A stretch of DNA of 64,000 nucleotides from Jiella soli (GTDB lineage: Bacteria; Pseudomonadota; Alphaproteobacteria; Rhizobiales; Rhizobiaceae): positions 62,001 to 126,000 of the forward strand of contig NZ_JAJAVB010000027.1 in assembly GCF_020615385.1 (NCBI RefSeq), written 5' to 3'. The position numbers and the translations under genes are program-made. This document shows, in pieces, positions 1,747 through 22,926 of this stretch (positions are counted from its first letter, which is position 1; each line of letters starts with the position of its first letter). The notes under the pieces were generated by a model. It did not search any database. It was not told the DNA's origin and worked only from the letters and a program-made list of their open reading frames with translations.

Positions 1747-1762
1747 TGGTGCCCCAAGCCGG
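1747..1762. repeat. Left attachment site copy (16-bp direct repeat of tRNA-Thr 3' end)
   Basis: The 16 bases TGGTGCCCCAAGCCGG are identical to 22851-22866, the 3' end (CCA, discriminator, acceptor strand and part of the T arm) of the tRNA-Thr gene on the minus strand. Only this piece of the tRNA is present; similarity stops right after it. This is the expected product of site-specific integration into a tRNA 3' end and marks the left edge of a ~21-kb island. Confidence 0.9.
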
Positions 1763-4045: not shown

Positions 4046-4112
4046 CCCTCGGCTGATCACGAAGGTGAGTAGCTTCGCTCGCCGCTTATGTCAGCTAAAT
4101 AGAGAAAAAATC

Positions 4113-6521
4113 ATGAATGACCAGAGTAAGCTGGACGGCCTGCTAAAGCCGTCCGGTGAGACGCCTGCGCGCGTCCACATCTCCAAGTTCGGCAACCACA
4201 GGACAACGGCCGCACGGCGCGAGCGGCTTTCGAAAGACGAGATCTGCCAACTTCTGATGAATCATCGCGTCGGCCCGAAGGAAGGGTCGGCATGGTCGCC
4301 CGCCATCTTCACGAATGATCGGCGGGCCAACGGCAATGCCGAGGCGGCGTGCCTGGCCGTGCTTGACCTCGACCATAGCCAACTTTCTCCGAAGCTCGTC
4401 GCCAGAAGACTCCGGGAAAAGCACATTGCGGGAATCATATCCACCACTTGGTCACATTGCCTCGAGGACCCGTGCATGCGCGTTGTCGTATTTCCTAGGA
4501 CACCTTGGAGAGCCGCCGACTACGCGAGCCCGGGAAAGGCTAAAGTAGCTTTCGCCGCGGGTTTGAGGACTCTGGCCAAATGCCTCGGCCTCAAGATCGA
4601 TCTAAACGCCTTGGACCCCGCCCGCCTCTATTTCCTCCCACGCCATCAAGACGGTGCTACAGCAGATGCGATTTGGGTAGACGGAGGCGCTGTTGATGTT
4701 TGGCCGGCGTCTGGCGAATCCGATACTGGGGAACAAGCAGCCGGTGACAGCGAAGACGATGATGATTACGACGATCCTCTCGACCGTCTGTACACCGCCC
4801 CGGAGGAGATCGTTCGTTCCGCCATCACAGCAACGCGCAACGATGCTCGCTTCGACGAGCGCCGACGATGGCTGAAGCAGCTGGCAGCCATACAGAACAC
4901 ATTGGGAGAGGCTGGCCGAGACGCGGCGGAAGAGTGGTCGAAGAAATGGGAAGGCGGCGAGCACGATGATGAGGAGTTCGCACGCACTTGGAATTCGCTG
5001 GACACCAAATATCAAGGCCGCAAGGCCGGTATTGGCACGATCCTCGCCGAGGCAAAAACTGATGGCTGGGTCGATCCAAGAGGCACTAACCAGCATCTTT
5101 CGCAGGCTCGCTGCAGCGCGGACGAACGGGCAGCCGGCGGCGACATCTGGGCTGGTGTGCAGCACGCGAACCGGCTTCGCGGACATCGTCTCTACGAGTC
5201 GGCGTCGAGATGTTGGTGGCGCTGGACGGGGTTTCAATGGACTAGGCAAACGTCCGAGCAGGTGGCGGCCGATGCAAAGGAGACCAGCGCTCAACTCCTC
5301 AACGGCGCGGCCGGGAAGCTTGGCGCCGACGCGAGCGAACGTGAGCAACGACTTTACAAGGATCTGACGAAGCTGCATCGGACAAATGCGCGGCAGCAAG
5401 CTATGGTCGAGGCGGCCAGCTCCGAACCAGGGATGGCGGTAGGATCGCCGGCCGTTTTCGATGTCGATCTGGCCAACTTGGCCCTTCCGAACGGCATTCT
5501 GAATCTTCGTACAGGACAATTGAACGAGTCGCCGGCGTCTAGCAGCCTGGTCTCGAAGCTTGCCGGTACGCGCTTCATACCCGGCGCGGTCGCTCCCTTG
5601 TTTGATAAGTTCCTCCAAACGGCGCTGCCCAATGAGGAAATCCGCTCGTTCGTCCAAAGGACCGTCGGCTACACCCTGACCGGCTACGTGGACGAAGAAT
5701 GCTTCTTCGCCCTGCACGGCACGGGCGCCAACGGGAAATCCGTATTCGGAAACATTCTCCATGCCCTTTTGGGAGATTACGCAACGACGTCCGGGCCGGC
5801 GATGCTCACACGCAGCAAATCGGGCAACGAGGGAGAGCGTCTTGTTGCGGGGTTGCCAGGGAAGCGGATCTCTCTGGTGAATGAAACTGCCGTCGGCGAC
5901 CTGTGGGATTCGGAGCGTATGAAAACGCTAGCCTCACGTGAACCAATGACCGCCCGCTCCCTTTATCGCGAGCCGTTCGTCTTCATGCCGACGGCGAAGA
6001 TCTGGCTTCGGACGAACCACCTTCCCGGCTCACTGGATGCTGGCGATGGCTTTTGGCGGCGGATGATTGCCATTCCGTTTGCGCGGCAGGTACCACCCGA
6101 AGAGCGCATCCCAGATTTGGACCGCAGAATCATCGAGAGCGAGCTGCCTGGCGTTCTGAATTGGGCCCTTGAAGGCGCCCGAAAGTGGTTCGATGCCGGC
6201 CACAAGCTTAATCCACCGAACGAGATTCTTGCAGTCGTAAATGATTATCGTGAAGAAACTGATGTGCTCGGCATGTGGATCGAGGAGCGGACCAAGCCTG
6301 ACATCAACTGCCGCGTGCCCGTCCAAATGGCATGGCAGAATTACAAGGAGTATTGCGAAGAAAAGGGCATCAGCGCGGGATCAGGCTTCATCTTCTCGCG
6401 AGCGATGACCTCTCGCGGTATGGAGAGATCCAAATCACGCAAGAACGGCCGCCAGTACCAAGGCTTTCGCCTCAGATGGAGCTGGCCCAGCACGGATGAT
6501 AACGACGACGAATTCATTTGA
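4113..6521 (+). CDS. P4-family primase-helicase (prim-pol plus D5-like helicase)
   Basis: The 802-residue protein has an N-terminal prim-pol-like region (LAVLDLDHS, then a STTWSH strand, then DPARLYFLPRH, about residues 80-190). After a linker comes a D5-type superfamily 3 helicase with Walker A GTGANGKS (about 535-542), a conserved SLVNET and the IWLRTNHLP sensor-like segment. This architecture starts replication of P4-like satellites, integrative elements and some plasmids. I prefer the ATG at 4113 over the upstream GTG at 4065, which lacks a good ribosome binding site. It is the last gene of the rightward operon. Confidence 0.9.
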   Translation: MNDQSKLDGLLKPSGETPARVHISKFGNHRTTAARRERLSKDEICQLLMNHRVGPKEGSAWSPAIFTNDRRANGNAEAACLAVLDLDHSQLSPKLVARRLREKHIAGIISTTWSHCLEDPCMRVVVFPRTPWRAADYASPGKAKVAFAAGLRTLAKCLGLKIDLNALDPARLYFLPRHQDGATADAIWVDGGAVDVWPASGESDTGEQAAGDSEDDDDYDDPLDRLYTAPEEIVRSAITATRNDARFDERRRWLKQLAAIQNTLGEAGRDAAEEWSKKWEGGEHDDEEFARTWNSLDTKYQGRKAGIGTILAEAKTDGWVDPRGTNQHLSQARCSADERAAGGDIWAGVQHANRLRGHRLYESASRCWWRWTGFQWTRQTSEQVAADAKETSAQLLNGAAGKLGADASEREQRLYKDLTKLHRTNARQQAMVEAASSEPGMAVGSPAVFDVDLANLALPNGILNLRTGQLNESPASSSLVSKLAGTRFIPGAVAPLFDKFLQTALPNEEIRSFVQRTVGYTLTGYVDEECFFALHGTGANGKSVFGNILHALLGDYATTSGPAMLTRSKSGNEGERLVAGLPGKRISLVNETAVGDLWDSERMKTLASREPMTARSLYREPFVFMPTAKIWLRTNHLPGSLDAGDGFWRRMIAIPFARQVPPEERIPDLDRRIIESELPGVLNWALEGARKWFDAGHKLNPPNEILAVVNDYREETDVLGMWIEERTKPDINCRVPVQMAWQNYKEYCEEKGISAGSGFIFSRAMTSRGMERSKSRKNGRQYQGFRLRWSWPSTDDNDDEFI

Positions 6522-7760: not shown

Positions 7761-7863
7761 CCATGCTGCTATAAAGATCCCGCTTCCAGAGTTCAGCCGC
7801 CCCGCCTTCGGAATCGAGCAGCCTAGATTTGCGATGAGCGAGTGCATCGAAACTAACGAGCTA

Positions 7864-8706
7864 ATGAACTATCGACACGCATTTCATGCCGGCAACCACA
7901 CCGAAGTCTTCAAACATGCCGTGCTATCGATCGTCCTCGACATGCTGCGGCTCAAACCTCGTCCGTTCGCAGTCATCGACACGCATGCCGGCCTCGGCGT
8001 CTATGATCTGACATCACGCGAGGCGGCTCGGACCAACGAGAGGGCGGAAGGCGTGGAGCGTCTTGGAAACAGGGGCCTTCGGTCGGCGCCTGTCTATACC
8101 TCTTCTCTGGCGTCGACCAGGGCTGGGGCAGAGAACCTGTATCCGGGTTCTCCTGAGATCACACGCCTTGCGCTGCGCGGCTACGACCGGTTGATCCTAT
8201 GCGAGCTTCATCCTGAGGACGGGGAATCGTTGCGCCGGCGATACCGATCCGATCCGCGGGTTTCGGTCCACTTGCGCGACGGCTACGAGGCAATCGGCGC
8301 ACTCCTACCGCCTGCCGAGAGACGAGGACTGGTCTTCGTGGATCCCCCATTCGAGAAGACCGACGAGACGGGGGCGATCGGGAGAGCGCTCGTAAAGGGT
8401 TTTCGTCGCTGGGCGACCGGCATCTATATGGTCTGGTACCCAATCAAAGGATCCGAGAACGGAATGAAGATTGAGGCCGCAGCAATTGAGGCGGGCTTCA
8501 ACGACGTGCTCCGCGCCGAATTCTGCCCCTTCGTGCGAAGCGGACTGGAATTGGCGGGAAGCGGTCTCGTTATCTGCAACCCGCCGTGGACGCTCGACCG
8601 CAAGCTGCGGCAGCTCTGCGAGGAACTGTCGACGATCCTAGGCCACGGCGACGTCACATGGAGCGTCCGTCTCGCCTTTGACGAAGGGCGCGGCGAACAA
8701 TCCTAG
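7864..8706 (+). CDS. rlmJ: 23S rRNA (adenine-N6)-methyltransferase RlmJ homologue carried on the island
   Basis: The 280-residue product aligns along its whole length with RlmJ, which methylates A2030 of 23S rRNA with SAM. Signatures are NYRHAFHAGNHTEVFKHAVL at the N-terminus, the SAM site DTHAGLGVYDL, YPGSPEI, the catalytic DPPFE (DPPY in E. coli) and VICNPPWTLD near the end. The ATG at 7864 matches the family start; an in-frame ATG at 7833 is possible. RlmJ is normally a housekeeping gene, so its place here between an IS remnant and the nucleotide cluster is unusual. All key motifs are intact. Confidence 0.9.
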   Translation: MNYRHAFHAGNHTEVFKHAVLSIVLDMLRLKPRPFAVIDTHAGLGVYDLTSREAARTNERAEGVERLGNRGLRSAPVYTSSLASTRAGAENLYPGSPEITRLALRGYDRLILCELHPEDGESLRRRYRSDPRVSVHLRDGYEAIGALLPPAERRGLVFVDPPFEKTDETGAIGRALVKGFRRWATGIYMVWYPIKGSENGMKIEAAAIEAGFNDVLRAEFCPFVRSGLELAGSGLVICNPPWTLDRKLRQLCEELSTILGHGDVTWSVRLAFDEGRGEQS

Positions 8707-8969
8707 TGGATGCGTTCGCGGCGTTTGGGCTCATCTGCTTCAAAGGCATGGATTGCCAAGATCAGGTCGCGCCATCGCCGACACATTACGTAATCGCCTC
8801 GTTCAAACGCTCGATCCGCCCTGGCGTCCACAACATCAAGTGCGCGCTCGGACCCGAGATGATCGAAGAGCGTCATCGCACGGATCCACGCTGATCGACG
8901 CAGACCATAGTCGTGGGGCTCCGAACTGCAACCGAGACCTCTTACAACTTTTACGCTATATTTCCACAC
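8703..8969 (-). CDS. Small conserved protein, antisense to the cluster
   Basis: The 88-residue ORF, converging on rlmJ with a 4-base overlap, has a pattern I recognise from small alphaproteobacterial proteins: AWIRAMTLFDHLGSERALDVVDARADRAFERGDY followed by CRRWRDLILAIHAFE. That is, two helices with an Asp/Ala-rich middle and a W(R/K)xxxxAI segment. Such proteins are common near genomic islands; their function is unknown to me. The true start may be the internal ATG at 8879. I call it coding because the residue pattern is conserved-looking, not because of length. Confidence 0.55.
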   Translation of the reverse strand: MWKYSVKVVRGLGCSSEPHDYGLRRSAWIRAMTLFDHLGSERALDVVDARADRAFERGDYVMCRRWRDLILAIHAFEADEPKRRERIH

Positions 8970-9088
8970 ATGCCCTCCAGTGCTGCAGGATCGGCACTTT
9001 TCATGTATAACGACGTACCCAGGTCGCCAACTCGACGGCTAGACGTTATCACTTTTTGATAGTGCGAACGTGCGAAAGAGGGAATCGA

Positions 9089-10990
9089 GTGTCGTTTTTC
9101 GGACTGGCGATCGACGATGCGAACCTGGAACGGCCGATCGGCGCGGTCGGACGCCTTGAGCGATCCGCCCCCTCGACGGCTAGAACAGCCCGCCTTCCCT
9201 CGAACCTCACCGCGCTTTTGGCGGCTTGCGCCGAGCAGCCGGAAAGAGTGCTGTTCCTCGACGTCGAGACGACGGGGCTGAGTCACTTTTACGACGAGAT
9301 CACTGTAATCGGCTGGTCCTACAAAGGGCGTGCCTCAACGATCGTGAAAGGCGACTGCCATCGCGCACTTGTTGAGGATGCGCGCGACGCGGTCGCAATC
9401 ATCACGTTCAACGGAATTCGCTTTGATAGTCGGTTCCTGCGCGCGGAATATCCTGACGTCGTACTGCCGCAGCACCATCTGGACCTCATGTATCTCTGCC
9501 GTAGGGCGGGTTTGAAAGGCGGGCAGAAGGCGATCGAGAAGGCATTGGGAATTGAGTTGCGGACGAAGGTCGACGGCATCGATGGACTTGCGGCCGTCAC
9601 TCTGTGGCACCGCTACGTGCGTGGAGACGTCGGGGCTCTTGAGGGCCTAGTCCGTTACAATCGTGCCGATATCGCCGCGATGGGTGCGATCCTCGATCGG
9701 GTACTTGTCTGCTTGGACGTTGCGCCGGACCTATTCGTTGGCGACGTGTGCTTCGAGAAATGGGCAGGCCCTTGTGGGTTGGAGGAACTACCGACGTTCG
9801 AGCCGAGGAAGGCTGACGATTTGCGGCAGCTCGATTTCAAGTCCCTACTTGGCAATGGTCCGGCTTCAAGCGCGCGAATCGTCGGCATCGACCTGACCGG
9901 TTCTGAGGCGCGAGGTTCGGGCTGGTGCCTACTCGACGGCGACAAATGCCAAGTCGCCACAGTCTTTACTGACCGCGACCTGATCGACAGGACGATGTCT
10001 TCCAGACCCGATCTGATCTCAATCGACTCACCGCTTTGCCTTCCATCCGGTCGGACAAGCGTCGACGATGCTGATCCGGGACGCGAGAGGTTCGGCATCA
10101 TGCGGGAGTGCGAGCGTGAGCTGAAGCGGCGCGGTGTGAACGTGTATCCCTGTCTCCTGCCGAGTATGCAGAAGCTGACTGCGCGTGGAATGTTGTTGGC
10201 AGAGGAGTTTCGGCGTCGAGGGGTTCCCGTGATCGAGAGCTATCCTGGAGCCGCACAGGACATCATGCGCATACCTCGCAAAGGTGCCGGCGTGGAGTGG
10301 CTTCGGCTCGGTCTAGAGGAGTTCGGTCTGAAGGGCGATTTCGGAGAGGCGACGCACGACGAACTCGACGCAGCGACATCTGCGCTTGTCGGCTCGTTTC
10401 ACTGGGCGGGATTGTCGGAGTCTTTGGGAACGGCGGACGAGCCCCCGCTGATCATCCCGATGCTATCCGGTGCGCCCCATCGGCTACTGATCGGCATCAG
10501 CGGTCCGATCGCCGCAGGCAAGACGACGCTTGCGCGCGAACTCGAGGCACTGGGCTTTGCCTACGCTCGCTTTAGCGAAGTGATCGACGACGAACTTAGG
10601 GCGAGAGGTCTTCCTCTGGATCGGATCGAGAGGCAGCGTCTCGGCGCCGAGATCCATCGGACGGGCCGGCAGCGCTGGCTCGCCGGACGCACCCTCGCCC
10701 GCGTTGGAGACGCCGAGCGTGTAGTCATCGACGGTCTGCGCTTCGCAGATGACCATGCTTTCTTCGGGGAAATCATGGGCGGCTCGTATTTGCATGTTTT
10801 CGTTGACGCGGACGAGGCTTTGCGTAGAGAGCGGTACGCGTTGCGATCTGACGACGACTTCAGTGTCGCCGCCAGCGCCGATGTGGAAAGTGGGATCGAG
10901 ATCCTGCGGGGCCTCGCGCATCGCAGATTGGTTAACTGCGCGACGCGCGACACCGTTGCCGCCGAGGCCCGCGACCTTGCTGCAATCTAA
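9089..10990 (+). CDS. Three-domain protein: RNase H-like exonuclease, DUF429-like domain, P-loop nucleotide kinase
   Basis: The 633-residue protein joins three domains. Residues ~52-215 are a YprB/DEDD-type exonuclease: FLDVETTGL (Asp58, Glu60), ITFNGIRFDSRF (Asp113) and YNRADI (Asp194). Residues ~263-445 resemble DUF429, a predicted RNase H-fold nuclease: IVGIDLTGSE, LISIDSPLCLP, VIESYPGA and THDELDAATSAL. Residues ~466-633 are a P-loop kinase with GPIAAGKTT, like dephospho-CoA or (deoxy)nucleotide kinases. I chose GTG at 9089 because AGAGGG lies six bases upstream; TTG at 9056 is the longer option. It is the first gene of a four-gene block; the PurZ-like gene follows 14 bases later. Confidence 0.85.
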   Translation: MSFFGLAIDDANLERPIGAVGRLERSAPSTARTARLPSNLTALLAACAEQPERVLFLDVETTGLSHFYDEITVIGWSYKGRASTIVKGDCHRALVEDARDAVAIITFNGIRFDSRFLRAEYPDVVLPQHHLDLMYLCRRAGLKGGQKAIEKALGIELRTKVDGIDGLAAVTLWHRYVRGDVGALEGLVRYNRADIAAMGAILDRVLVCLDVAPDLFVGDVCFEKWAGPCGLEELPTFEPRKADDLRQLDFKSLLGNGPASSARIVGIDLTGSEARGSGWCLLDGDKCQVATVFTDRDLIDRTMSSRPDLISIDSPLCLPSGRTSVDDADPGRERFGIMRECERELKRRGVNVYPCLLPSMQKLTARGMLLAEEFRRRGVPVIESYPGAAQDIMRIPRKGAGVEWLRLGLEEFGLKGDFGEATHDELDAATSALVGSFHWAGLSESLGTADEPPLIIPMLSGAPHRLLIGISGPIAAGKTTLARELEALGFAYARFSEVIDDELRARGLPLDRIERQRLGAEIHRTGRQRWLAGRTLARVGDAERVVIDGLRFADDHAFFGEIMGGSYLHVFVDADEALRRERYALRSDDDFSVAASADVESGIEILRGLAHRRLVNCATRDTVAAEARDLAAI

Positions 10991-11004
10991 ATCAAGGGTG
11001 CGAT

Positions 11005-12057
11005 ATGCCCGTATCGGTAGTCGTCGGAGGACAATTCGGATCGGAGGGCAAAGGCAAGGTTGCGCTTGAGATCGTTCGCCGCAACTTTGGACCGACAACC
11101 GTCGTCCGCGTAGGAGGCCCCAACTCCGGACACACCGCGTACGATAAAGCAGGACGTCGGTGGGCGTTGCGCCAGATGCCTGCCGCCTGCGTGGATCGAA
11201 ACGTGGACGTCGTGTTTCCGCCCGGATCCTATCTCGACGTCGACGTTCTGTTGGAAGAAATATCGGCTCTCGACTACCCGACCGACCGCATCATCGTCAG
11301 CCCGTGGGCACAAGTCGTCACCGACGCGCACAGGCGTTGGGAACAGGAGGCGGGCCTCGTTTCCTCGATCGGTTCCACCGGATCGGGAACCGGTGCCGCC
11401 GTCATGGCAGCAATCGCACGCGACGCGCCAACATTCCCCCTGAAGACGCTTCATGCTGAGCATCATGGTTTACTGGCTCCGTTCGTCCGCTGCGGCGACA
11501 CGGGAGAGCTACTGGCCGATCGTCTCGGCAGCGGCCAGCGGATCGTCGTCGAGGGGTCTCAAGGTTTCGGTCTGTCGCTGCTCGATGGAGGGTACTGGCC
11601 AAAGGCCACCTCGCGATCGACGACAGCCGCTGCGGCGCTAGCGGAGGCCGGACTCGCGCCGCGGTGGGTCGACGACGTCACGATGGTCCTCCGAAGCTAT
11701 CCTATCAGGGTTGCGGGGGTTTCTGGTCCATTGCCTAAGGAAACGACATGGGAGGAAGTCGCACGTAGAGCCGATCTAGCGCTCGACATTCGAGAATACA
11801 CTACAGTGACAGGCAAGCTGCGCCGAGTGGGAGAATTCGACGCATTGCTAGTTCGCCGCGCTCTAGCTGCTAACGCTCCAAATAATTTGGTGCTGAATCA
11901 CCTTGACTACGTCGGACCGGCCGGCGGGATCGGCGATCCAAATAGTGTCGTATCGCAGTTTATCCGCCGAGTGGAAGCCGCCATCGGGCGGCGGATAGAC
12001 TGGTACGGCTTCTCTGCGTTAGACATCATGGCTGGGAGGGAGCAGGCGACTTCGTGA
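11005..12057 (+). CDS. PurZ-like adenylosuccinate synthetase homologue (Asp-to-Ser in the active site)
   Basis: The 350-residue protein is a short PurA-family enzyme, the length of archaeal PurA and phage PurZ rather than bacterial PurA (~430). The N-terminal loop reads GGQFGSEGKGK: the position of the catalytic Asp (E. coli Asp13) is Ser13, as I recall for phage PurZ, which makes N6-succino-2-amino-dAMP from dGMP and aspartate. The second catalytic residue is kept (PNSGHT, His43). Other matches to the family are SIGSTGSGTGAA, EGSQGFGLSLLDGG, PIRVAGVSG and the Asp-binding EYTTVTGKLRRVGEFDA. It follows the exonuclease-kinase gene by 14 bases with AAGGG before the ATG. PurA-fold identity is firm; PurZ activity is inferred. 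Confidence 0.85.
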   Translation: MPVSVVVGGQFGSEGKGKVALEIVRRNFGPTTVVRVGGPNSGHTAYDKAGRRWALRQMPAACVDRNVDVVFPPGSYLDVDVLLEEISALDYPTDRIIVSPWAQVVTDAHRRWEQEAGLVSSIGSTGSGTGAAVMAAIARDAPTFPLKTLHAEHHGLLAPFVRCGDTGELLADRLGSGQRIVVEGSQGFGLSLLDGGYWPKATSRSTTAAAALAEAGLAPRWVDDVTMVLRSYPIRVAGVSGPLPKETTWEEVARRADLALDIREYTTVTGKLRRVGEFDALLVRRALAANAPNNLVLNHLDYVGPAGGIGDPNSVVSQFIRRVEAAIGRRIDWYGFSALDIMAGREQATS

Positions 12058-12359
12058 CATACCACCCACAGATCGACTGCCTGTCGAACATTACCAGTCA
12101 TAATGAGGTAACTACGATTGCTGATCTCTCGAACGAATGGCTGGTAACGCGGCAGATAGTGGCGTCGATTTTTCATGCACACGACAGTGCGCGGGAGCAC
12201 GGGTCGTGATTCCGCAAGCCGGTAATCTTTGGACAAAAACGAAATATTCGGGCCTGATGTCGCCACCATGGGCGGGAGCGCGTTTTCTCTCTGTCTTTCC
12301 TTCTCCACTCTACGGCCTGATCCACCTGCGACGTTCTTTCAACCACACCAGAGGGACAG
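12058..12359. other. Spacer inside the nucleotide cluster
   Basis: No credible gene is visible in these ~300 bases. They are noticeably more A/T-rich than the flanking genes and may hold a promoter for the dCTP-deaminase-like gene. A clear GAGGG ribosome binding site stands at the right end. Confidence 0.45.
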
Positions 12360-13610
12360 GTGAGACGCTTTTTTGCACGTTGGGTCCCAATGTCTGAAGA
12401 TAGCGACGCGCAGGCTGCCGCCGACAGTTCCGTTGAGCAGGAGATTGTAGGTAGACTAGACGCTGCTGGATTGGCCGAGCCTTTGTTGGGCCAGCCCGAC
12501 CCCTTTCCAAGTATTGCCCCGTCCCTTCTCTCCGCTGATCATATAGAAAACTATGTCCGAAAAACTGGGATGATAGCGCCATTCCATCTTGGTGGCGGTA
12601 GAAAGGCGCGTCTTAAAAAAGCTTCCTACGAAGGGCGCATCGGCAGCCGAGCGTATCAATACAATGAGCAAGGAAGTCTAATATCGGTCTCTATGGATGA
12701 TGGTGTCTTGGTCGTACCTGCGAATTCCATCGTCTTCGTGGAATCGGGAATCGATTTCAGACTCCCCGACTACATGGCAATCCGTTTTAACCTGCAGATC
12801 CTTCATGTCCACCGCGGCCTCCTCCTAGGAACGGGTCCGCTTGTCGATCCGGGCTTTTGGGGAAAGCTTTGCATTCCTCTGCACAACCTGACCGATGAGC
12901 CGTACACGATCCCGCTCGACGAGGGACTGATCTGGATCGAGTTCACCAAGACGACGTCAAACCCAAGGCACGGGCGAGATGCGTTGGGAGAGCCGCAGCA
13001 AAAAGCCCAGTTCTGGGACATAGAGAAGTTTATTCGGAAGGCCGCGGCTGCTCCGCGGGGACGCGCTGAGCCCGTCGCGATCAGAAGCTCAATTCCGTCT
13101 ATGGTTACTACGGCGAATGACAAGGCGGATGCCGCATCTAAGGCCAGCGAACAAGCAGCAAAAGACGCTAAGCTGGCGGCGGAAGACGCGAGACACGCAG
13201 CGGAAGACTCGGAGAAGGCAAAAAGCACTCTCCACCGGCTAGGGTTTGGCGCAGCATTAGCAGGCGTAATTGCGATATTTAGCCTATTGCTTTCTCTCGC
13301 CTCTTTATATGCATCATACTACTGGAGTATTAAAAGCGATATCGACGAAATTCAAGTAAAAGTGGACGGGGCGGGAGCGGCGCTTAGCGAACTCAAGAAT
13401 CGTGTCTCATCAATGCGGAACGACGACCGTGCGCAGTTGCTTGAGGACCAGATCCGTTACCTGCGGAATGAGTTACTCCGCCTTCGCAGAGCGGCCCCTG
13501 CCGACGTTGGAGGGGGCGACGTCATCCCAAATCCTGAGACACGGCCCGTTCCTCGCGGTGCGGACGCGGCTGCGCCCCCATCCGCGGCGGACCCGATTGA
13601 TGCAAGATAG
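12360..13610 (+). CDS. Membrane-anchored dCTP deaminase/dUTPase-fold protein
   Basis: Residues ~50-205 resemble the dCTP deaminase/dUTPase fold: YMAIRFNLQILHVHRGLLLG, then GTGPLVDPGFWGKL and IPLHNLTDEPYTIP, ending EGLIWIEFTK. The Glu that activates water in classical Dcd (in the LE-x-x-N strand) appears to be replaced in IPLHN, so deamination is doubtful; nucleotide binding or a dUTPase-like reaction remain possible. An Ala/Lys/Glu-rich helical linker (~245-285), one transmembrane helix (~289-313) and a coiled coil (~318-365) follow. GTG at 12360 is chosen for its GAGGG site; ATG at 12390 is an alternative. Its end overlaps the next gene by 11 bases. Confidence 0.8.
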   Translation: MRRFFARWVPMSEDSDAQAAADSSVEQEIVGRLDAAGLAEPLLGQPDPFPSIAPSLLSADHIENYVRKTGMIAPFHLGGGRKARLKKASYEGRIGSRAYQYNEQGSLISVSMDDGVLVVPANSIVFVESGIDFRLPDYMAIRFNLQILHVHRGLLLGTGPLVDPGFWGKLCIPLHNLTDEPYTIPLDEGLIWIEFTKTTSNPRHGRDALGEPQQKAQFWDIEKFIRKAAAAPRGRAEPVAIRSSIPSMVTTANDKADAASKASEQAAKDAKLAAEDARHAAEDSEKAKSTLHRLGFGAALAGVIAIFSLLLSLASLYASYYWSIKSDIDEIQVKVDGAGAALSELKNRVSSMRNDDRAQLLEDQIRYLRNELLRLRRAAPADVGGGDVIPNPETRPVPRGADAAAPPSAADPIDAR

Positions 13611-14325
13611 ATACGTAGGAGACATTGGCGACTACGCGAAGCTCTCACTAGTGCGTCGTCTGGCGGCAGGCCGGAGGCTAGGGGTGGCTTGGTATCTGCA
13701 CCCGGACGAAGGCCACAACCAGGACGGACGCCACGTTAGCTATCTGCGGGACGTTGATCGCTGGCGTGGACCTGATCCCGAAGTTTTCGACTACATAACA
13801 AGCATCGCTGACGGCCCCAGGCTGGTCAGTGCATTGCAGGATGCGTTCGAGGAGGGGACACTTTTCGCCTCTGAGACTGTTCCGGCGCGGAACCTGCCTA
13901 GACGTCTGCGATGCGCGGAACGGGCGTTGTGGTTTGAGCGGACGCGGACGGCACTGACGGACGCCGAGATCATATTTGCAGACCCGGACAACGGGCTGGT
14001 CTCCGACGATCCCGCCCGACGTCTCGAACCCAACTTCGCAAAGCGAATGCCGATCTCCGAAGTCCTGGCTCTCGCGAACGGACGTCCAACGATTGTCTAC
14101 CACCACAACAGTCGCTTCAAGGGCGGCCACGAGGCCGAGATCGATTTCTGGATGAGGCGCTTGGGCCGCCCGAGCATTGCGGTCCGCTGCAACGCGTATA
14201 GCTGCCGCACCTTTCTCGTTATCAATCCCGACGCGAAGATCAGCGATAGGGTCGTGGGCTTTTGTCGAGACTGGCGCGACCATAAAGTCTCTCTCCACGC
14301 GAACGCGGCTGCCCGGAGCCCATGA
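13600..14325 (+). CDS. Conserved protein of unknown function (MQDRYVGDIGDYAK family)
   Basis: The 241-residue protein begins MQDRYVGDIGDYAKLSLVRR and continues GVAWYLHPDEGHNQDGRHVSYL. I recognise this beginning from a family scattered over bacterial genomes, often in variable regions, but know no function for it. An acidic FADPDNGL motif in the middle and IVYHHNSR further on look like conserved polar sites and could be catalytic or metal-binding; that is inference. The gene overlaps the dCTP-deaminase-like gene by 11 bases, so the two are very likely co-expressed. No signal peptide or membrane segment is seen. Confidence 0.75.
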   Translation: MQDRYVGDIGDYAKLSLVRRLAAGRRLGVAWYLHPDEGHNQDGRHVSYLRDVDRWRGPDPEVFDYITSIADGPRLVSALQDAFEEGTLFASETVPARNLPRRLRCAERALWFERTRTALTDAEIIFADPDNGLVSDDPARRLEPNFAKRMPISEVLALANGRPTIVYHHNSRFKGGHEAEIDFWMRRLGRPSIAVRCNAYSCRTFLVINPDAKISDRVVGFCRDWRDHKVSLHANAAARSP

Positions 14326-14585
14326 GGGCAACCACGCGACAGCCTTGATGCAAAAATCGAGTCGGAAGCGTACTGCGAGTCCTTTCTCCCGATGGAGCAA
14401 AAGGCTGACATTCTGCTTACGGCCTGATGCTCATCTGTGGCAACGGTTCTTATGACTGGAAAGCCGTCGTTCGCAAGGTCGCAATTCAATGGCAGCCAAG
14501 CGGGCGAAAGAGCCGTTCGGATTTGCAACAAGAGGTTCTCTTTGTGCGGCTCGCTACACGAAAAATCAGCCCTGGCTGGAATCCA

Positions 14586-15881: not shown

Positions 15882-17045
15882 TCACGCGGCCTTGGCCTGA
15901 CCGTTGAAGATCTCGTGCAGCATGGCTGGGATCAGGGCCTCTACATCCTGCGCAGTGCTGGCGCGCATGGCGCGGGCTTCGCGGGCCTTCGCATGGAGGC
16001 GGTCAAACCATTGCTGGCGGCTCATCGGTGGCGTAGGAACCGTGAGTGCCTCCAGGGCTCCTTGGCCCAGAGTGCGATTCCGATCGGCACTTCCGCGCGA
16101 TGCGGATTGGACCTTGGCGAGACCTTCAGAGGTCTGGAGGTAGAACCAGATGAAATTGGCGGTCGCGAGCCCTTGAGTGGGAACGCATGTCAGATAGCGG
16201 TGCGACCCGACTCGCCCATGATCATCGGGGCCTGCCACCGCGAACGCCCCCTCCCAAGCTTTGATGTTGCTGAACACGAGGTCGCCCTGCTGAACAAGGA
16301 ATAGCTTTTGCCAGCTCAGCTCCGCGCCCAGCAGATCAGGTTTGTGGAACGTGCCTCGGCCGAACGAACGGACTCCGAGCTCTGGGTAGCGGGCATCAAG
16401 ATCGATTTCGACTGGCCTGCGCACCAAGGGCGCAACCTCGGCCATGGGGAGCAGGGTGGCGCCGTCGATGGCGCGCTGGAAGGCTTTCAGCAGCAGCGCC
16501 TGCGTTTCCCGCTCGGCCGCCTCTAGGGCGCGTCGGCGGTCTTCGACCAATGCAGCGACACTGTCGAGCTGCCGGACGATGCGGCGCTGTTCGTCGAGAG
16601 GCGGCAGTGGGACTTCGATCGCTGCAAGCTTTTCTACACCAAGCGTTCGGTTCCGACCGGCGCCCCCGGGGGAGGCCCATAGCAATTTGTCGCGCCCTCT
16701 GTCGTGCGTGAACCACCAGAAAAGGTACCGGGCCTCTGCGAGTTTCGGATCGACCACACAGGTAAGAAAGCGATGGGAACCGACCTTCCCGTCCTCAGCT
16801 TCAGTAGCGACAGCGACGGCTCCTTCCCATGCGAAAACAATATTGAATAGGAGGTCGCCTGACTTCCATTCAAATAGGCGTTTTTCTCCAAGCTCTGATC
16901 CCGTTTTGGGCTCCTTATGAAAGGCGCCACGCCCAAAGGATCGAATTCCAACTTCGGGATAAAATTGGTCTGGCAAAGTCTCGATCGGACGTCGGACCAG
17001 CGGTGCGATTTCCCTCATCGTCCGTAGAATGAGCTGCCCTTTCAC
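15882..17045 (-). CDS. hsdS: Type I restriction-modification specificity subunit
   Basis: The 387-residue protein has two target-recognition halves separated by a conserved helix (LDEQRRIVRQLDSVAALVEDRRRALE). The halves resemble each other closely: EIAPLVRRPIE...GIRSFGRGAFHK in the first and EVAPLVRRPVE...GVRSFGRGTFHK in the second, and both contain VGSHR(F/Y)LTCV and RNRTLG. HsdS sets the bipartite DNA site for the methylase and nuclease complex. I start it at the GTG at 17045, which overlaps the hsdM stop (GTGA); a longer reading would run into hsdM. Confidence 0.92.
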   Translation of the reverse strand: MKGQLILRTMREIAPLVRRPIETLPDQFYPEVGIRSFGRGAFHKEPKTGSELGEKRLFEWKSGDLLFNIVFAWEGAVAVATEAEDGKVGSHRFLTCVVDPKLAEARYLFWWFTHDRGRDKLLWASPGGAGRNRTLGVEKLAAIEVPLPPLDEQRRIVRQLDSVAALVEDRRRALEAAERETQALLLKAFQRAIDGATLLPMAEVAPLVRRPVEIDLDARYPELGVRSFGRGTFHKPDLLGAELSWQKLFLVQQGDLVFSNIKAWEGAFAVAGPDDHGRVGSHRYLTCVPTQGLATANFIWFYLQTSEGLAKVQSASRGSADRNRTLGQGALEALTVPTPPMSRQQWFDRLHAKAREARAMRASTAQDVEALIPAMLHEIFNGQAKAA

Positions 17046-18607
17046 AGCTTCTCTCCCAATACGGCTTTGATCTCGTCCATGATGCCGAGGATTCGCTGTT
17101 CCTGTGCGATGATCGCATCCACGATCTCGGCCGGCGCGCGATGATCGGCGACCTCGCCGGAATGCGGGTTCTTGATGTCCAGGTTGCACGCGACGACACG
17201 GTCCTGGGCGTCGCGCTGGATCAGGTCAGCAGCGGAGACCTTCCAGGCGCGCTCGTTCGGCTCGCGCTTCTTCCACCAGGCAAGGCAGTCCGCAAATTCC
17301 TCATAGGCCATGGGCGCGGTTTTCGAGTATTTCTTGCGGCCCTCCGGCAGCGGCATCTCGTAGTACCAGATGTCCGTCGTCGGTCCGGTCGTGTCGAAGA
17401 AGATCAGGTTTGCCGGGATGTCCGTGTAGGGCGCGAACACCCCTTCACGCAACCGGACCACCGTGTGCAGGTTGAACTTCTCGAGCAGGTCGGCCTTGAT
17501 CCGCGCTGAAATGCCATCGCCGAACAGCGTGCCGTGCGGAACGACGACCGCGGCCCGCGCGCGCCCGGCGCGCTTCAGCCGACGCATGATCAGTTGCAGG
17601 AACAGCAACGCCGTTTCGGCCGTGCGCCGGTCCTCCGGGAAGTTGTTGAGGATGCCTGCCTCCTCCTCGCCGCCGAATGGCGGATTGGTCAGGATGACAT
17701 TGACCCGCTGATCCTCGCCGATCTCGGCCAGGCGGAAGCGAAGGGCATTGCCGGGGTCGATGCGCGGGGCATGCAGACCGTGCAGCAGTAGGTTGAGCTG
17801 GGACAGCAGGAACGGCAGCGACTTGGCCTCGCCGCCGAAGAAGCTGTCTTCCTGGAGGATGCGCCGCTTCTCGACTGTATCGGCCTCGCGCTCAAGATGG
17901 AGGAACGCCTCGGTCAGAAATCCCCCGGTGCCGCATGCCGGGTCGAGGATGGTTTCGCCCAGCTTGGGATCGGTGACCTCGACCATGAACCGCACGACCG
18001 GCCGGGGCGTGTAGAACTCGCCCGAGTCCCCCGCCGCGTCGCGCATCTCGCGTAGCAACGTCTCATAGAGGCGGCCGAGTGTGTGAACTTCTTCCGAGGA
18101 ATCGAAATGGATGCCGTCGATCAGGTTGACCACGTCGCGCAGCAGGTAGCCGCTTTCCATTCGGTTCGCGAAGCCCTGGAAGACGGTCGCGATCACGTCG
18201 CGCCGTTCGCGACGCCCGTTATCGCCGCGCAAGCCTCGGAGATAGGCGAAGAGCCCTGGGCCGCGCGTGCCGTCCGGACGCTCGGTCATTTCGGAAACGA
18301 GAAACGACAGGAGGTCGGGGCCGGTAATGCCGTCCGCATCCGCCGCCCAGTCGCGCCAGCGATAAGGGGCCTCGATGATCGAGCGATAATCCTTGCCCGC
18401 GAGCTCCGCGCGTCCCTCCTCGATCCGCTCCATGTCGTCGAGGAACTTCAGGAACATGATCCAGGTGAGCATCGGCAAACGATCAAGGTCGCCGTTCAGC
18501 CCCTTGTCCTTCCGCATGATCTTGCGAGCGGATTTGATAATGCTGTCGAGACGCTGGGCAGTAGTCAGTTGCTTCGGCACAGCCTTCTTGCGGGCGGTTG
18601 TAGCCAA
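17042..18607 (-). CDS. hsdM: Type I restriction-modification DNA methyltransferase subunit
   Basis: The 521-residue protein has an N-terminal helical HsdM domain (IIKSARKIMRKDKGLNGD...MFLKFLDDMERIEE) and an N6-adenine methylase domain with SAM motif ILDPACGTGGFL and catalytic NPPFGG. Together with HsdS it methylates adenine in the recognition sequence and protects island and host DNA from HsdR. The start is a TTG with GGGAG eight bases upstream. It lies 17 bases after hsdR and overlaps hsdS, forming an hsdR-hsdM-hsdS operon read leftwards. Confidence 0.95.
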   Translation of the reverse strand: MATTARKKAVPKQLTTAQRLDSIIKSARKIMRKDKGLNGDLDRLPMLTWIMFLKFLDDMERIEEGRAELAGKDYRSIIEAPYRWRDWAADADGITGPDLLSFLVSEMTERPDGTRGPGLFAYLRGLRGDNGRRERRDVIATVFQGFANRMESGYLLRDVVNLIDGIHFDSSEEVHTLGRLYETLLREMRDAAGDSGEFYTPRPVVRFMVEVTDPKLGETILDPACGTGGFLTEAFLHLEREADTVEKRRILQEDSFFGGEAKSLPFLLSQLNLLLHGLHAPRIDPGNALRFRLAEIGEDQRVNVILTNPPFGGEEEAGILNNFPEDRRTAETALLFLQLIMRRLKRAGRARAAVVVPHGTLFGDGISARIKADLLEKFNLHTVVRLREGVFAPYTDIPANLIFFDTTGPTTDIWYYEMPLPEGRKKYSKTAPMAYEEFADCLAWWKKREPNERAWKVSAADLIQRDAQDRVVACNLDIKNPHSGEVADHRAPAEIVDAIIAQEQRILGIMDEIKAVLGEKL

Positions 18608-18624
18608 GATAGAGCTCCCTCAAT

Positions 18625-21003
18625 TCAAGCGGTGTAGAGCAGACGCTGCAGCTCGGTGACGGCGCTGCGCAGCTCCTTGCCCCCGCCGAAGCGGGCGGCG
18701 ATTTCTATGACGTTGCCCCAGTCGTTGAACGGGGGCACTTCCAGGATGTCGGGCAGCTTGAACTGGGCACTGCCGTGTTCGGCATACTTTTCAAGCACCG
18801 CATCCAGAACTTCGCGGGCATCCGGCCCAAAGCGGTCCAGAAACTCGTCCTGCTCCCTCACCAGACGGTCAGCGCGCTCGCGCCGGGTGCGCAGCGGCAT
18901 GTTATAGGCGAGATGGCAAAGGAGATCGAAAGGGTCTGCCTCCGGCTTTCCGACTGCATCAGCCAGGGAATCGAGGTCGATGCCCTTTTCCTCGAGCCGC
19001 TCGACGATTTCCGCCCGGCGTTGGGAGTCGAGCCAGTCCGTGCGCAGTTCCGACGCATTGGGATAGAGAGTGCGAACCTTGTCGCCTGTGTAATCGGTGA
19101 GCTGGCGGCAGGCGAGCTGCCGCCCGTCGGAATCGAGTTCGTAGACGAGGTGCCGGACGATCGCTACCTCGCCGCCGTCAACATAGAACTTGCGAGGGCC
19201 GTTCTCGGCTTCGTTCCCCAGCTCGACGGGTCCATCCGGGATGTCGGGCCCTTCAGGAAAATCGTCGGGATCCGGCGCCCCTTCTTCGATCTCACGCTCC
19301 TCGACGATATCGCCGTCCGCATCGATGACCGCTTCGTCCTCGCGGACGGGATCGCCGTCAAAAGCCGGATCGGCGAACATGCGTGTCGCCGTTCCGGTAT
19401 AATCGATGATGTTGAAGGCGAGCTTGCCGTAGTCGGGCCTGAGACGGGTGCCTCGTCCGATGATCTGCTTGAACTCCGGCATGGAGCCCACGACCCGCGC
19501 AAGCACGACGTTTTTGCAGGTCGGAGCGTCCACGCCGGTCGTGAGAAGCTGCGACGTGGTGAGGATGACCGGCGTCTGGGTCTCGACATCCTGAAACTTC
19601 GCCCTGTGCGCGCTCCCCACATCGCCCTCGTCGGACGTCACACGGCAAACGTAGTCGGAATGGTCCTTTACGAGATCGGTGTTTAGGGCGGCGAGCGCCT
19701 GCCGCATTTCGAGCGCGTGTTCCTGATCGACGCAGAAGACGATGGTCTTTGCGAAGCGGTCGGTCTCGGCCATGAAGCCCGCGAGATGTCTCGCAATGGC
19801 CTGCGTTCTTGCACGCAGTGCTACGACCCGCTCGAAGTCCCGCGTGGAGTACTCGGCGTCGGGGATCTCGCGTCCATAACGATCAAGTTCGCCACGCGTC
19901 GGCCGCCAGCCGGCAGCGTCGTAGTCCGAGATGACGCGATGGACGCGATACGGGGCCAGGAAGCCGTCAGCGATGCCCTGCGCAAGGCTGTACTCATAGA
20001 GCGGATCGCCGAAATAGTTGTAGGTGTCGACGTTGTCCTCTCGCCGCGGCGTCGCTGTCATCCCGATCTGGGTCGCAGGCTCGAACCACTCGAGGATCTC
20101 CCGCCAATTGCTGTCGTCCCGGGCGCTGCCCCGATGGCATTCGTCAATGATGATGAGATCGAAGAAATCGCGCGCATACTCCCGGTAGAGGCCCGGCCGA
20201 TTCTCGTCACGCGCAATGGACTGGTAGATCGCGAAATACATGTCGCGGCTCTTCACCGCCAGCCCACCAGCGATCTTGTGACGGGCGTCGCCAAACGGGC
20301 TGAAATCTTTTGCCATCGGATCGTCGACCAGAACGTTGCGATCTGCGAGAAACAGGATCTTCGGGTTCCATTTGACCCCCTTGGAATTCCAGCGGGCCGA
20401 CCAGAGCTTCCAGCAGATCTGGAAGGCGACGGCAGTCTTGCCCGCTCCGGTGCACAGCGTGATCAGTGCCCGCTTTCTGCCCTGAAGCGCCGCCTGAACG
20501 GCGCGGTTCACGGCGATTTCTTGATAGTAGCGAAGAGGTTTGGCTCGATCTGGAAACGTTGGCGTCAGCAGCCGTTCGGCCACTTGGTCGTCGACAATGC
20601 CCTCGGCGCGGCGGAGCCGAGCCCAAAGGTCATCAGGCGCCGGGAAATTCAAGATCGTTCGCTCGACGCCGGTCGTGTAGTCGAACTCGACAATCTCGAT
20701 CCCGTTGGTCGAGTACGCGAATTGAAGACCAAGGATTTCCGCATATTCCTTGGCTTGTTGGAGCCCCTCCGCAGCATGCCGGTAGCGGGATTTGGCCTCA
20801 ACGACGGCGATCGGGAAATCCGGATTATATCGGAGCAGATAGTCGGAGCGCTTCTGCTTGCCGCGGCGGGCCTTGCCGCCAATGAAGACAACACGACCGT
20901 TGGTGAAGGTTCTCTGTTCGTTTATCGCATGCGGGCGATCATCCCAACCCGCCGCCTGCAGCTTCGGGACGACGAACTTCCTGCAGGTATCGGCTTCGTT
21001 CAT
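18625..21003 (-). CDS. hsdR: Type I restriction endonuclease motor/nuclease subunit
   Basis: The 792-residue protein opens with a PD-(D/E)xK-type nuclease region (SDYLLRYNPDFPIAVVEAK, about residues 57-75). A superfamily 2 helicase motor follows: Walker A TGAGKTAVA, ADRNVL, DECH box, TATP, and the C-terminal motor motif QIIGRGTRLRPD. It cuts unmodified DNA after translocation. I chose the ATG at 21003 rather than the TTG two codons upstream. The length is short for HsdR but within the range of the EcoEI-like subgroup. It is the first gene of the RM operon. Confidence 0.93.
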   Translation of the reverse strand: MNEADTCRKFVVPKLQAAGWDDRPHAINEQRTFTNGRVVFIGGKARRGKQKRSDYLLRYNPDFPIAVVEAKSRYRHAAEGLQQAKEYAEILGLQFAYSTNGIEIVEFDYTTGVERTILNFPAPDDLWARLRRAEGIVDDQVAERLLTPTFPDRAKPLRYYQEIAVNRAVQAALQGRKRALITLCTGAGKTAVAFQICWKLWSARWNSKGVKWNPKILFLADRNVLVDDPMAKDFSPFGDARHKIAGGLAVKSRDMYFAIYQSIARDENRPGLYREYARDFFDLIIIDECHRGSARDDSNWREILEWFEPATQIGMTATPRREDNVDTYNYFGDPLYEYSLAQGIADGFLAPYRVHRVISDYDAAGWRPTRGELDRYGREIPDAEYSTRDFERVVALRARTQAIARHLAGFMAETDRFAKTIVFCVDQEHALEMRQALAALNTDLVKDHSDYVCRVTSDEGDVGSAHRAKFQDVETQTPVILTTSQLLTTGVDAPTCKNVVLARVVGSMPEFKQIIGRGTRLRPDYGKLAFNIIDYTGTATRMFADPAFDGDPVREDEAVIDADGDIVEEREIEEGAPDPDDFPEGPDIPDGPVELGNEAENGPRKFYVDGGEVAIVRHLVYELDSDGRQLACRQLTDYTGDKVRTLYPNASELRTDWLDSQRRAEIVERLEEKGIDLDSLADAVGKPEADPFDLLCHLAYNMPLRTRRERADRLVREQDEFLDRFGPDAREVLDAVLEKYAEHGSAQFKLPDILEVPPFNDWGNVIEIAARFGGGKELRSAVTELQRLLYTA

Positions 21004-21403
21004 GCGCAATCTACTTCGCCCAGCTTCGACATGCCATCGCGCTGCAAACGGCTTGTCAAAGAACTCGGCTCAGACCAACGCGCAATTCTTTGGGTTTGGC
21101 AGCTCTTTTGCCTGACAACGGCTCGGAGAAGCTACAGCGTGGCCGACTGATGCCGCAAGCCTTATTCCGTCCCTGGCAGCAAGGACTCGCGCCGGGCTTT
21201 AATCATTCATCCGGGATCTGCACTCGCAGCGACTGAAGCCTCCGGCCCAAAGATGTTCCCCGTGGAGTGGTACCTCGACCCGATCGGGGGCGAGCTGCGA
21301 CTGTCGGAGCGTCCGCATAAGTCACCTTCTTGATAAGTCGTTCGCGCAATGCCAAATTTCGGCCTGGCACGCTCAAAAGCTGCCGGTCCGCTTTCCTTCG
21401 CGG
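21004..21403. other. Spacer between RM operon and integrase
   Basis: This stretch probably holds the hsdR promoter. A short plus-strand frame around 21250-21340 (MFPVEWYLDP, then GELRLSERPHKS) reads like protein but has no clear start or family, so I leave it as a possible gene fragment. Confidence 0.4.
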
Positions 21404-22621
21404 TCAGATAATAGCCGCGACTTCAACCTGGCGCCGCGCACGCTGTCGCAATTCGTCGCAAAGATCTGCCCATGCCTGTGCCATCTCGACCCGCTCTTTC
21501 CAATAGAGCGCACGATTGTAGACGCGGCGCACGGCATTGGAGTCGACATGCGCGAGGCTCGCTTCGATCACGTCATAGCGCCAACCGCGCTCATTGAGGA
21601 TCGTCGAGGCCGATGACCTGAAGCCGTGGGCGGTGTGAGTGCCCTTCCCATATCCAACCTTATCCAAGGCGTAGTTCATCGCGTTCTCGGAAATCATCGC
21701 GTGCTTGCGGCGATAGCGGTTCGGGAAAATGATCTCCCCGCCGCCGCTGATCTCCCGTTGCGCCTCGAAAATCTCCACGGCCTGCCGCGACAGCGGGACC
21801 AAATGTTCCCGACGCATCTTCGCGACTTCCTTGGGTATCGTCCAAACGCGCTCTTTGAGATCGACATCGCTCCACCGCGCCAAACGAGTTTCGACGGGGC
21901 GGCAATAGCAGAGCGACTGGAGCTTCAGGGCATGTCGGACGCTCCGATCCCCGTAGGTCTCCAGGGCGACGAGAAGCTTGCCGAATGCCTTCTCGTCGGT
22001 GATCGCCGCCGTGCTTTCCACCTCGACCTTCGGCAGAACCTTCTTCAGCGACGTGACGGGATTGATCTCCGCCTCATCGCGAACGATTGCGAAATCAAAG
22101 ACGGCAGCGATCCGGCTCCGAAGTCGAACCGCACTCTCCCGGCGACCGGAGTCAGCGACAGCCTCGATCACAGGCAACACGTCGCGAGCCCGAATGTCCG
22201 CAATCGGCATGTCGTGGAGTGGTGCGGCGAGTGTTTCGAGGAGCCAAACGTTCTTCTGCAAAGTCTGGACGGCCGGGTTCTTCTTCTCCAGCGCAGTCAG
22301 GTAGAGGCTCACCATGTCGCGGAACGTAGCCCGACCCGCCGATATTGCGGCCTCGACGTTTCGCTTCTTCGGCTCCGGGTCCTTCCCACGTGCGAGATCA
22401 CCCTTGAGCCGATCGCGTTCCACCCGAGCCTCGGCAAGGCCCATGTCTGGATAAATCCCGAGGTTCTTCGCACGGCGCTCGCCGTTGATCCGGTAATCGA
22501 TCCGCCACGTCTTTTTTCCCGCAGGCGTGACGAGGAGATGAAGCCCGCCCCCATCGGTCAGTTTTGTGAGCTTTGAGACCGGCTTCAGCTTTTTCAGAAT
22601 CAGAGAATTTAGCGCGTTCAT
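21404..22621 (-). CDS. int: Tyrosine integrase of the P4 type
   Basis: The 405-residue protein has the N-terminal DUF4102-like arm-binding domain (LTDGGGLHLLVTPAGKKTWR...LGIYPDMGLAEAR), a SAM-like core-binding domain and a C-terminal catalytic domain. Catalytic residues I can place are Arg241 (CRPVETR), His332 and Arg335 (HGFR), His358 (SLAH) and Tyr368 (VYNR). It inserts the element into the 3' end of the neighbouring tRNA-Thr gene. It starts 230 bases from the tRNA and points away from it, the usual arrangement for such islands. It appears intact. Confidence 0.96.
   Translation of the reverse strand: MNALNSLILKKLKPVSKLTKLTDGGGLHLLVTPAGKKTWRIDYRINGERRAKNLGIYPDMGLAEARVERDRLKGDLARGKDPEPKKRNVEAAISAGRATFRDMVSLYLTALEKKNPAVQTLQKNVWLLETLAAPLHDMPIADIRARDVLPVIEAVADSGRRESAVRLRSRIAAVFDFAIVRDEAEINPVTSLKKVLPKVEVESTAAITDEKAFGKLLVALETYGDRSVRHALKLQSLCYCRPVETRLARWSDVDLKERVWTIPKEVAKMRREHLVPLSRQAVEIFEAQREISGGGEIIFPNRYRRKHAMISENAMNYALDKVGYGKGTHTAHGFRSSASTILNERGWRYDVIEASLAHVDSNAVRRVYNRALYWKERVEMAQAWADLCDELRQRARRQVEVAAII

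Positions 22622-22850: not shown

Positions 22851-22926
<76 letters not shown>

Follow-up and report, generated by a model that had tools for sequence, protein, structure and literature searches.

The window, the whole stretch of 64,000 nucleotides of Jiella soli DNA that we analyzed, carries an island with a 16-bp att repeat on its left side and a second copy at the end of a tRNA gene on its right. The features needed for this analysis are as follows, with counts out of 80 referring to the related loci described below.

1747..1762, plus strand: left 16-bp att repeat, TGGTGCCCCAAGCCGG
4065..6521, plus strand: P4-type primase/helicase of the island, from model matches
7864..8706, plus strand: RlmJ-like methyltransferase, inside the open reading frame 7330-8706; a neighbor in 11/80 loci
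8703..8969, minus strand: small conserved ORF of a family of 97-121 aa present in 6/80 loci; the match in the window was made by eye
9056..10990, plus strand: fusion protein of 644 aa, identified from Pfam, an AF2 model, a fold match and conserved residues
11005..12057, plus strand: PurZ-like synthetase, 350 aa with an ATG start, with Ser13 at the position of the PurA catalytic Asp
12360..13610, plus strand: DCD-TM protein, with a dCTP-deaminase/dUTPase-fold domain, a long helix and one predicted transmembrane (TM) helix (about 13251-13307)
13591..14325, plus strand: W307-family gene, called as 13402-14325 with homology from about 13591; a frequent fourth gene
15882..21009, minus strand: type I restriction-modification system found by PADLOC (S, 15882-17189; M, 17042-18607; R, 18625-21009)
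21404..22621, minus strand: tyrosine-recombinase-type integrase beside the tRNA-Thr, recognized by eye in the translation; homologs in 8/80 loci
22851..22926, minus strand: tRNA-Thr, the last 16 bases of which (22851-22866) are the right att repeat

We used sequence models, alignment and comparison with solved structures to classify the synthetase. The protein matches the Pfam family Adenylsucc_synt (6.6e-44), and its residues 8-18 read GGQFGSEGKGK, with Ser13 aligned to Asp13 of PurA. A preliminary description of this DNA had remarked on this loss of the catalytic Asp, and the ORF translation bears it out. In an alignment of 180 rows that combines cassette, viral-contig, kinase-fused, named phage PurZ/PurZ0 and Asp-type sequences, Ser13 is found in 80/80 cassette rows, 80/80 viral-contig rows, 6/6 kinase-fused rows and 9/9 named phage PurZ or PurZ0 rows, and in 0/3 Asp-type rows. 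One of our two search patterns demanded Ser; the Ser-independent pattern was matched by 28 of the 80 bacterial loci, and Ser is present in all 28. An additional check by way of the fusion gene yielded a single added genome (G758), which is probably the same as locus L071, and the Ser-independent subset was taken instead. Because Ser stands at the same position throughout the related bacterial and viral loci, a chance substitution is ruled out. Also as described earlier, His43 (PurA His41) and the aspartate loop are kept: the alignment retains His43 together with Lys16, Asn40, Gln186, Arg235, Arg273 and Arg274, and the aspartate-loop arginines are present.

The remaining active-site residues point towards the PurZ side of the family. 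The base pocket of S-2L PurZ is given as G22, S23, N49, A50, T132, Q190 and V241 in an excerpt of PMC8342488, and in our own alignment mapping the window equivalents are G12, S13, N40, S41, T125, Q186 and V236. Ser240 is present in 78/80 cassette rows and 9/9 named phage rows, and in 0/3 Asp-type rows. The position of D301, which aligns with the GTP contact D333 of PurA, is Asp in 79/80 cassette rows and 4/4 PurZ0 rows and Asn in 5/5 PurZ rows. An Asp here suggests that the synthetase uses GTP, a prediction of our own based on this one residue. According to the excerpt of PMC12884076, PurZ0 prefers ATP and PurZ prefers GTP; however, the introduction of that paper gives ATP for PurZ. The signature of a preference for deoxynucleotides is mixed, because the position of PurA R303 (K271 in the window) is Lys in 40/80 and Arg in 23/80 cassette rows. 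dGMP is a plausible substrate.

Among NCBIfam models the top match is PurZ (NF038379), at 243.7 bits and under its cut-off of 300 bits, and three PurA models score 211.3, 167.9 and 140.5 bits, all far under their respective cut-offs of 368, 395.55 and 402. The closest solved structures are 7vf6 (1.5e-46), phiVC8 PurZ (8.4e-41) and the archaeal PurA 2d7u (3.9e-40); we took the phage identities of 7vf6 (a PurZ0) and of the phiVC8 PurZ structure from the excerpt of PMC12884076.

We built a tree of 79 rows, comprising 12 Asp-type rows (11 PurA and one from a deazapurine cluster) and 67 Ser-type rows, in which the two types are split at 100/99 support. Of the 11 PurA loci added from other cassette genomes (see below), L208 and L217 are absent from this tree, having given no row by the motif used. 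The preliminary description had named clustering with true PurA, together with robust IMP-dependent activity, as the outcome that would speak against a PurZ-like role, and no such clustering appears. A canonical full-length PurA is encoded elsewhere in the host genome, on another contig (581.5 bits), and 11 of 12 other cassette genomes also have a full canonical PurA, the exception being a metagenome-assembled genome (MAG). An ordinary PurA paralog acting on IMP would share the fold and most active-site residues of archaeal-type PurA (2d7u, above), and His43, Lys16, D301 and the aspartate-loop arginines are common to archaeal and bacterial PurA; however, Ser in place of the catalytic Asp, the PurA model scores, the tree and the PurA of the host all argue against this reading, which we regard as extremely unlikely.

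Within the Ser-type side of the tree, 26 cassette rows and 6 rows from viral contigs form a single clade (100/99) that lies outside the phage PurZ and PurZ0 clades. The bacterial rows by themselves are not strictly monophyletic (p 7e-6 against monophyly), and PurZ-like genes on the viral contigs L092, L093, L095, L096, L099 and L109 are nested in the bacterial cassette clade. These contigs, some of them longer than 100 kb, are without the fusion gene. The annotated purA of Bacillus phage vB_BpsS-140 (L180:2950-4071) is Ser-type and is sister to phage PurZ.

The synthetase resembles phage PurZ (phiVC8 and S-2L; 6fm1, 7odx) in the Ser for Asp, the base-pocket residues, the compact length and its position on the Ser side of the tree. 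Unlike PurZ it belongs to a separate clade, has E14 and D301 where 5/5 named PurZ rows have Thr and Asn, and lies in a bacterial operon. With PurZ0 (Arthrobacter phage Wayne and Gordonia phage; 7vf6) it has its best PDB match (7vf6) and the residues E14 and D301 in common, and the PurZ0-type gene of several viral loci has a gene of the dUTPase fold next to it. PurZ0 is nevertheless a separate clade, and the neighboring phage dUTPases that we read keep the GRSS motif and are without a TM helix, whereas the bacterial DCD proteins have lost GRSS and have a TM helix. Identity with PurZ or PurZ0 is therefore not supported, because the score is under the PurZ cut-off, the clade is separate, E14 and D301 are unlike PurZ and the context is a defense-associated operon of bacteria and not a phage with a Z genome. 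Judged from its sequence, the synthetase is best classified as a PurZ-like, Ser-type enzyme of its own bacterial clade that is neither PurZ proper nor PurZ0. The earlier assignment as PurZ-like thus stands as far as Ser13, S240, the pocket residues and the host PurA are concerned, and falls short where PurZ or PurZ0 itself is meant. Recent capture of a phage PurZ was also considered and is rejected: no counterpart of the fusion partner occurs in the phage collection, none was recovered from viral contigs, and the clade is separate.

We next asked how widely the gene arrangement is conserved. Pattern searches across 84,980 species genomes yielded 408 matches, 371 of them relatives, and we kept the 80 that rank highest in similarity to the window. 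The operon order is a fusion of a 3'-5' exonuclease, DUF429 and an NMP kinase, followed by the PurZ-like synthetase and then by the dCTP-deaminase-fold domain with a TM helix. Neither these two partner genes nor the 16-bp repeats that bound the island figure in the preliminary description. Among these best 80 of 371 relatives, the DUF429 fusion is present in 73, the DCD gene in 78 and all three genes in 72; the fusion lies on the same strand no more than 300 bp upstream in 67/80, the DCD gene no more than 300 bp downstream in 63/80, and both hold in 54/80. By record title the loci come from Pseudomonadota, Cyanobacteriota, Bacillota, Bacteroidota, Actinomycetota, Verrucomicrobia, Fibrobacteria and others, and the source genomes include several isolates and many MAGs; the cassette proteins of L086 and L088 are identical, and one of the two is possibly mis-binned. 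In the window, positions 12058-12390 leave about 300 bp between the synthetase and DCD genes, which are adjacent or overlapping in most relatives, and the two are only putatively co-transcribed across this gap.

The cassette is sparse within lineages. The fusion is found at a convincing score in 1 of 199 genomes of the family (its own genome only, with weak partial matches in 2 others), in 1 of 385 genomes of the class and in 2 of 398 of the phylum. Among 50,697 phage records the fusion has no match; 72,556 plasmids gave a single partial one, and in the viral contigs no relative could be confirmed. Ser-type (PurZ) enzymes have been described from phages and a few archaea, and a survey of the PurZ group (PMC12884076) lists 147 phage and 4 archaeal sequences. 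Our 371 relatives place Ser-type synthetases in bacterial genomes at scale. No paper describing the operon was found in the open-access literature, where most matching papers were judged by title alone, and the cassette is apparently both widespread and not described before.

The fusion protein begins with a DEDD-type 3'-5' exonuclease-like RNase_H_2 domain (residues 66-215) and ends with an adenylate-kinase-like NMP kinase (AAA_18, residues 473-644). Between them, at about residues 277-470, the window protein matches DUF429 at 21.7 bits, slightly under the Pfam cut-off of 23. The AF2 model of the fusion has a pLDDT of 87.3, and its kinase part superimposes on AMP-bound 3lw7 (Z 20.3, rmsd 2.4, 164 residues); the matches listed in this fold search were filled by the kinase part. 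L055 and L062 have HHH_8 plus PHP, of the PolX type, at the N terminus in place of the unrelated RNase_H_2 domain. Since the exchange is between non-homologous exonucleases, we infer that 3'-5' exonuclease action itself is required in the operon. In L001, L054 and L058 the whole fusion is replaced by a YfbR-like HD gene. A gene of the deoxynucleoside-kinase-like dNK family follows or adjoins the operon in 18/80 loci, with the Pfam identification made in two scanned examples. On a Dyadobacter plasmid (L186:6432-8594), a sub-threshold DUF429 gene lies directly 3' of a diadenylate cyclase gene.

The third gene combines a familiar fold with the loss of its catalytic motifs. The DCD-TM protein, the true start of which is possibly at about 12390-12402, matches a dCTP deaminase model of NCBIfam (2.1e-6), and its structural model aligns with 8y1w over 146 residues (Z 16.6, rmsd 1.9). 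In the alignment to 4xjc, a Pro stands where that protein has a Glu that we take to be the catalytic residue of dCTP deaminase, and the presence of E138 mutants among the listed structures fits this assignment. The Pro is invariant in 46/46 aligned proteins, and the GRSS motif is found in 0/83 DCD proteins. A hydropathy scan predicts a single TM segment near the C terminus of almost all DCD proteins and three segments in a few. The protein therefore shares the fold of dCTP deaminase and dUTPase (4xjc, 8y1w) but differs in the Glu to Pro change, the loss of GRSS, and the added long helix and TM segment. The domain looks catalytically dead, and a role as a dCTP deaminase or a DutZ-like hydrolase is not favored given the loss of the catalytic Glu and GRSS, though these losses could also reflect catalysis of another kind instead of a sensing role.

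The DCD gene also appears to change faster than its neighbors. Compared with L016 from Jiella pacifica, the window has 84% DNA identity over 7723-11656 and 13601-14332; in the intervening part, which runs from the middle of the synthetase gene across the DCD gene, a single 183-bp stretch of the DCD gene aligns (70%), and identity is 65% for the synthetase and 54% for DCD. Across 67 loci, pairs with fusions 72-91% identical often, but not always, have DCD proteins of 20-50% identity. Two DCD genes each are present in L012, L037, L041, L044 and L083. The partial correlation of distances is 0.31 for synthetase and DCD and 0.56 for fusion and synthetase, where the nearest DCD was used and non-equivalent paralogs were paired for L041 and L044. 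A tightly matched pair of synthase and sensor is not supported, because the first of these values is the weaker. The pattern would fit an exchangeable receptor-effector, and ordinary fast divergence is possible too.

The surroundings of the operon are rich in defense genes. Among 111 cassette-neighbor proteins, 63 PADLOC families are matched at 1e-10 versus 3 for 111 random ORFs, where the counts are of families and not of proteins, the 111 remain from 120 sampled neighbors after 9 dNK-type genes were dropped, and the control ORFs come from chosen positions in 11 genomes of one order while the neighbors come from many phyla. The families include SoFic, AbiEi, TIR-pAgo and LmuA. HsdM-like genes are found in 10/80 loci (1.42 Mb), including the near relatives L019, L020, L026 and L027, versus 79 HsdM_N matches in 150 genomes, or about 0.1 per Mb with genome sizes estimated. 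The W307 family is present in 25/80 loci (23 by clustering), and its proposed relationship to RlmJ reached an hhalign probability of 15.7. PADLOC 2.0 returned no family for the synthetase or for DCD-TM and a single weak DEDDh match (2.1e-4) for the fusion. The island setting may instead reflect hitch-hiking.

The operon could alternatively serve the metabolism or salvage of unusual purines, with for example a 7-deazapurine or a nucleoside as product, and travel on islands without a part in defense. A Rhizobium leguminosarum plasmid (L003:8375-16721) offers a relative in such surroundings, with folE, an Asp-type PurA-like gene, purB, queE, an IMP-dehydrogenase-like gene (guaB), a nitrile hydratase subunit and queC, and the content of this cluster is suggestive of a 7-deazapurine product. 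However, this relative has the Asp and groups with PurA, and the cassette in question has nuclease and TM parts in a defense-rich setting; we consider a salvage role very unlikely.

What we observe is that the three genes stay together, that the synthetase has Ser in its active site and lies apart from PurA in the tree, that the deaminase motifs are gone, that a TM helix is predicted and that the setting is that of defense islands. On this basis we propose that the three-gene operon most likely acts against phage by way of a base-modified purine deoxynucleotide, with the synthetase as its modifying enzyme. This is our leading reading, and we hold it at slightly less than an even chance; the substrate, the signal and the effector action are those we infer for the operon. 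The exonuclease domain of the fusion, perhaps with DUF429, would free or sample deoxynucleoside monophosphates during infection. As the active site suggests, the Ser-type synthetase would then join aspartate to dGMP or a related 2-aminopurine nucleotide, probably with GTP, giving an N6-succino product that host PurB could convert to dZMP. From its fold, the fused NMP kinase, aided in some lineages by the deoxynucleoside kinase, may raise the product towards the triphosphate. Finally, the catalytically dead DCD fold would bind the modified nucleotide and the TM segment would act on the membrane, the two forming an exchangeable sensor-effector. A broader form of the proposal, in which an immune system of many phyla uses a cellular PurZ-type synthetase to make a Z (2-amino-adenine-type) deoxynucleotide alarm that is read by an exchangeable, dead dCTP-deaminase-fold and membrane-acting receptor, is possible and is put forward with considerable reserve.

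If this reading holds, the operon resembles the Kongming system (KomABC, with a dITP signal) in its base-modified deoxynucleotide, its kinase steps and its receptor from a nucleotide-enzyme fold, which is what we take KomB to be. It differs in using amination-type (PurZ) rather than deamination chemistry, in having a kinase domain of its own, and in a DCD fold with a TM segment rather than an NAD-depleting effector; among the operon proteins scanned with Pfam no SIR2-type NAD-depleting effector was seen, and DCD-TM occupies that place. According to PMC12948488, Kongming makes dITP from dAMP with kinases and thereby activates an NAD-depleting effector, which is a precedent for a modified nucleotide as an immune signal. 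Among the predicted, untested defense genes of DefensePredictor (PMC13092281) are other nucleotide-modifying domains. If true, our proposal would add a second base-modified-nucleotide immune pathway, and phage Z-genome synthesis and bacterial defense would share one enzyme family, raising the question of whether they exchanged it. The operon would also be directly testable.

The same parts could work by poisoning rather than signaling. In that case dZTP or its succino form, made by the operon, would enter phage DNA or block phage polymerases, the exonuclease would edit or protect host DNA, and DCD-TM would be a membrane-anchored nucleotide hydrolase or scaffold. Expression of a Z cluster is toxic to E. 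coli and places Z into its DNA (excerpt of PMC8342488), and with the kinase domain and dNK there may be a route to the triphosphate. On the other hand, hydrolysis is doubtful for a DCD domain without GRSS and the catalytic Glu, the conserved TM helix would be left without a clear role, and the island genes covered by the scan include no Z-specific polymerase. We judge poisoning unlikely. In the subset of island ORFs scanned, none of DatZ, MazZ, DutZ or DpoZ was found near the synthetase. Depletion is a further alternative, in which dGMP/dGTP or other dNTPs are drained and phage replication is starved. Defenses based on dGTPase and dCTP deaminase are depletion-type parallels, every part of the operon acts on deoxynucleotides by family, and the YfbR-like HD genes that replace the fusion in three loci belong to a 5'-nucleotidase type. 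However, a synthetase and kinases build nucleotides, which is odd for draining pools, and the deaminase-fold domain looks dead; we find depletion decidedly unlikely.

A second cassette is present on Rhizobium, Agrobacterium and Methylobacterium plasmids (L002, L004-L008), where a kinase-PurZ(Ser) fusion is accompanied by DUF7002, a 453-aa unknown protein and a YfbR-like HD gene. DUF7002 has no relatives in the PDB by sequence, and its likeness to an ART-like toxin is an impression only. In the tree the kinase-PurZ(Ser) fusions form a separate clade (100/98), and therefore the link between kinase and synthetase recurs with other candidate effectors.
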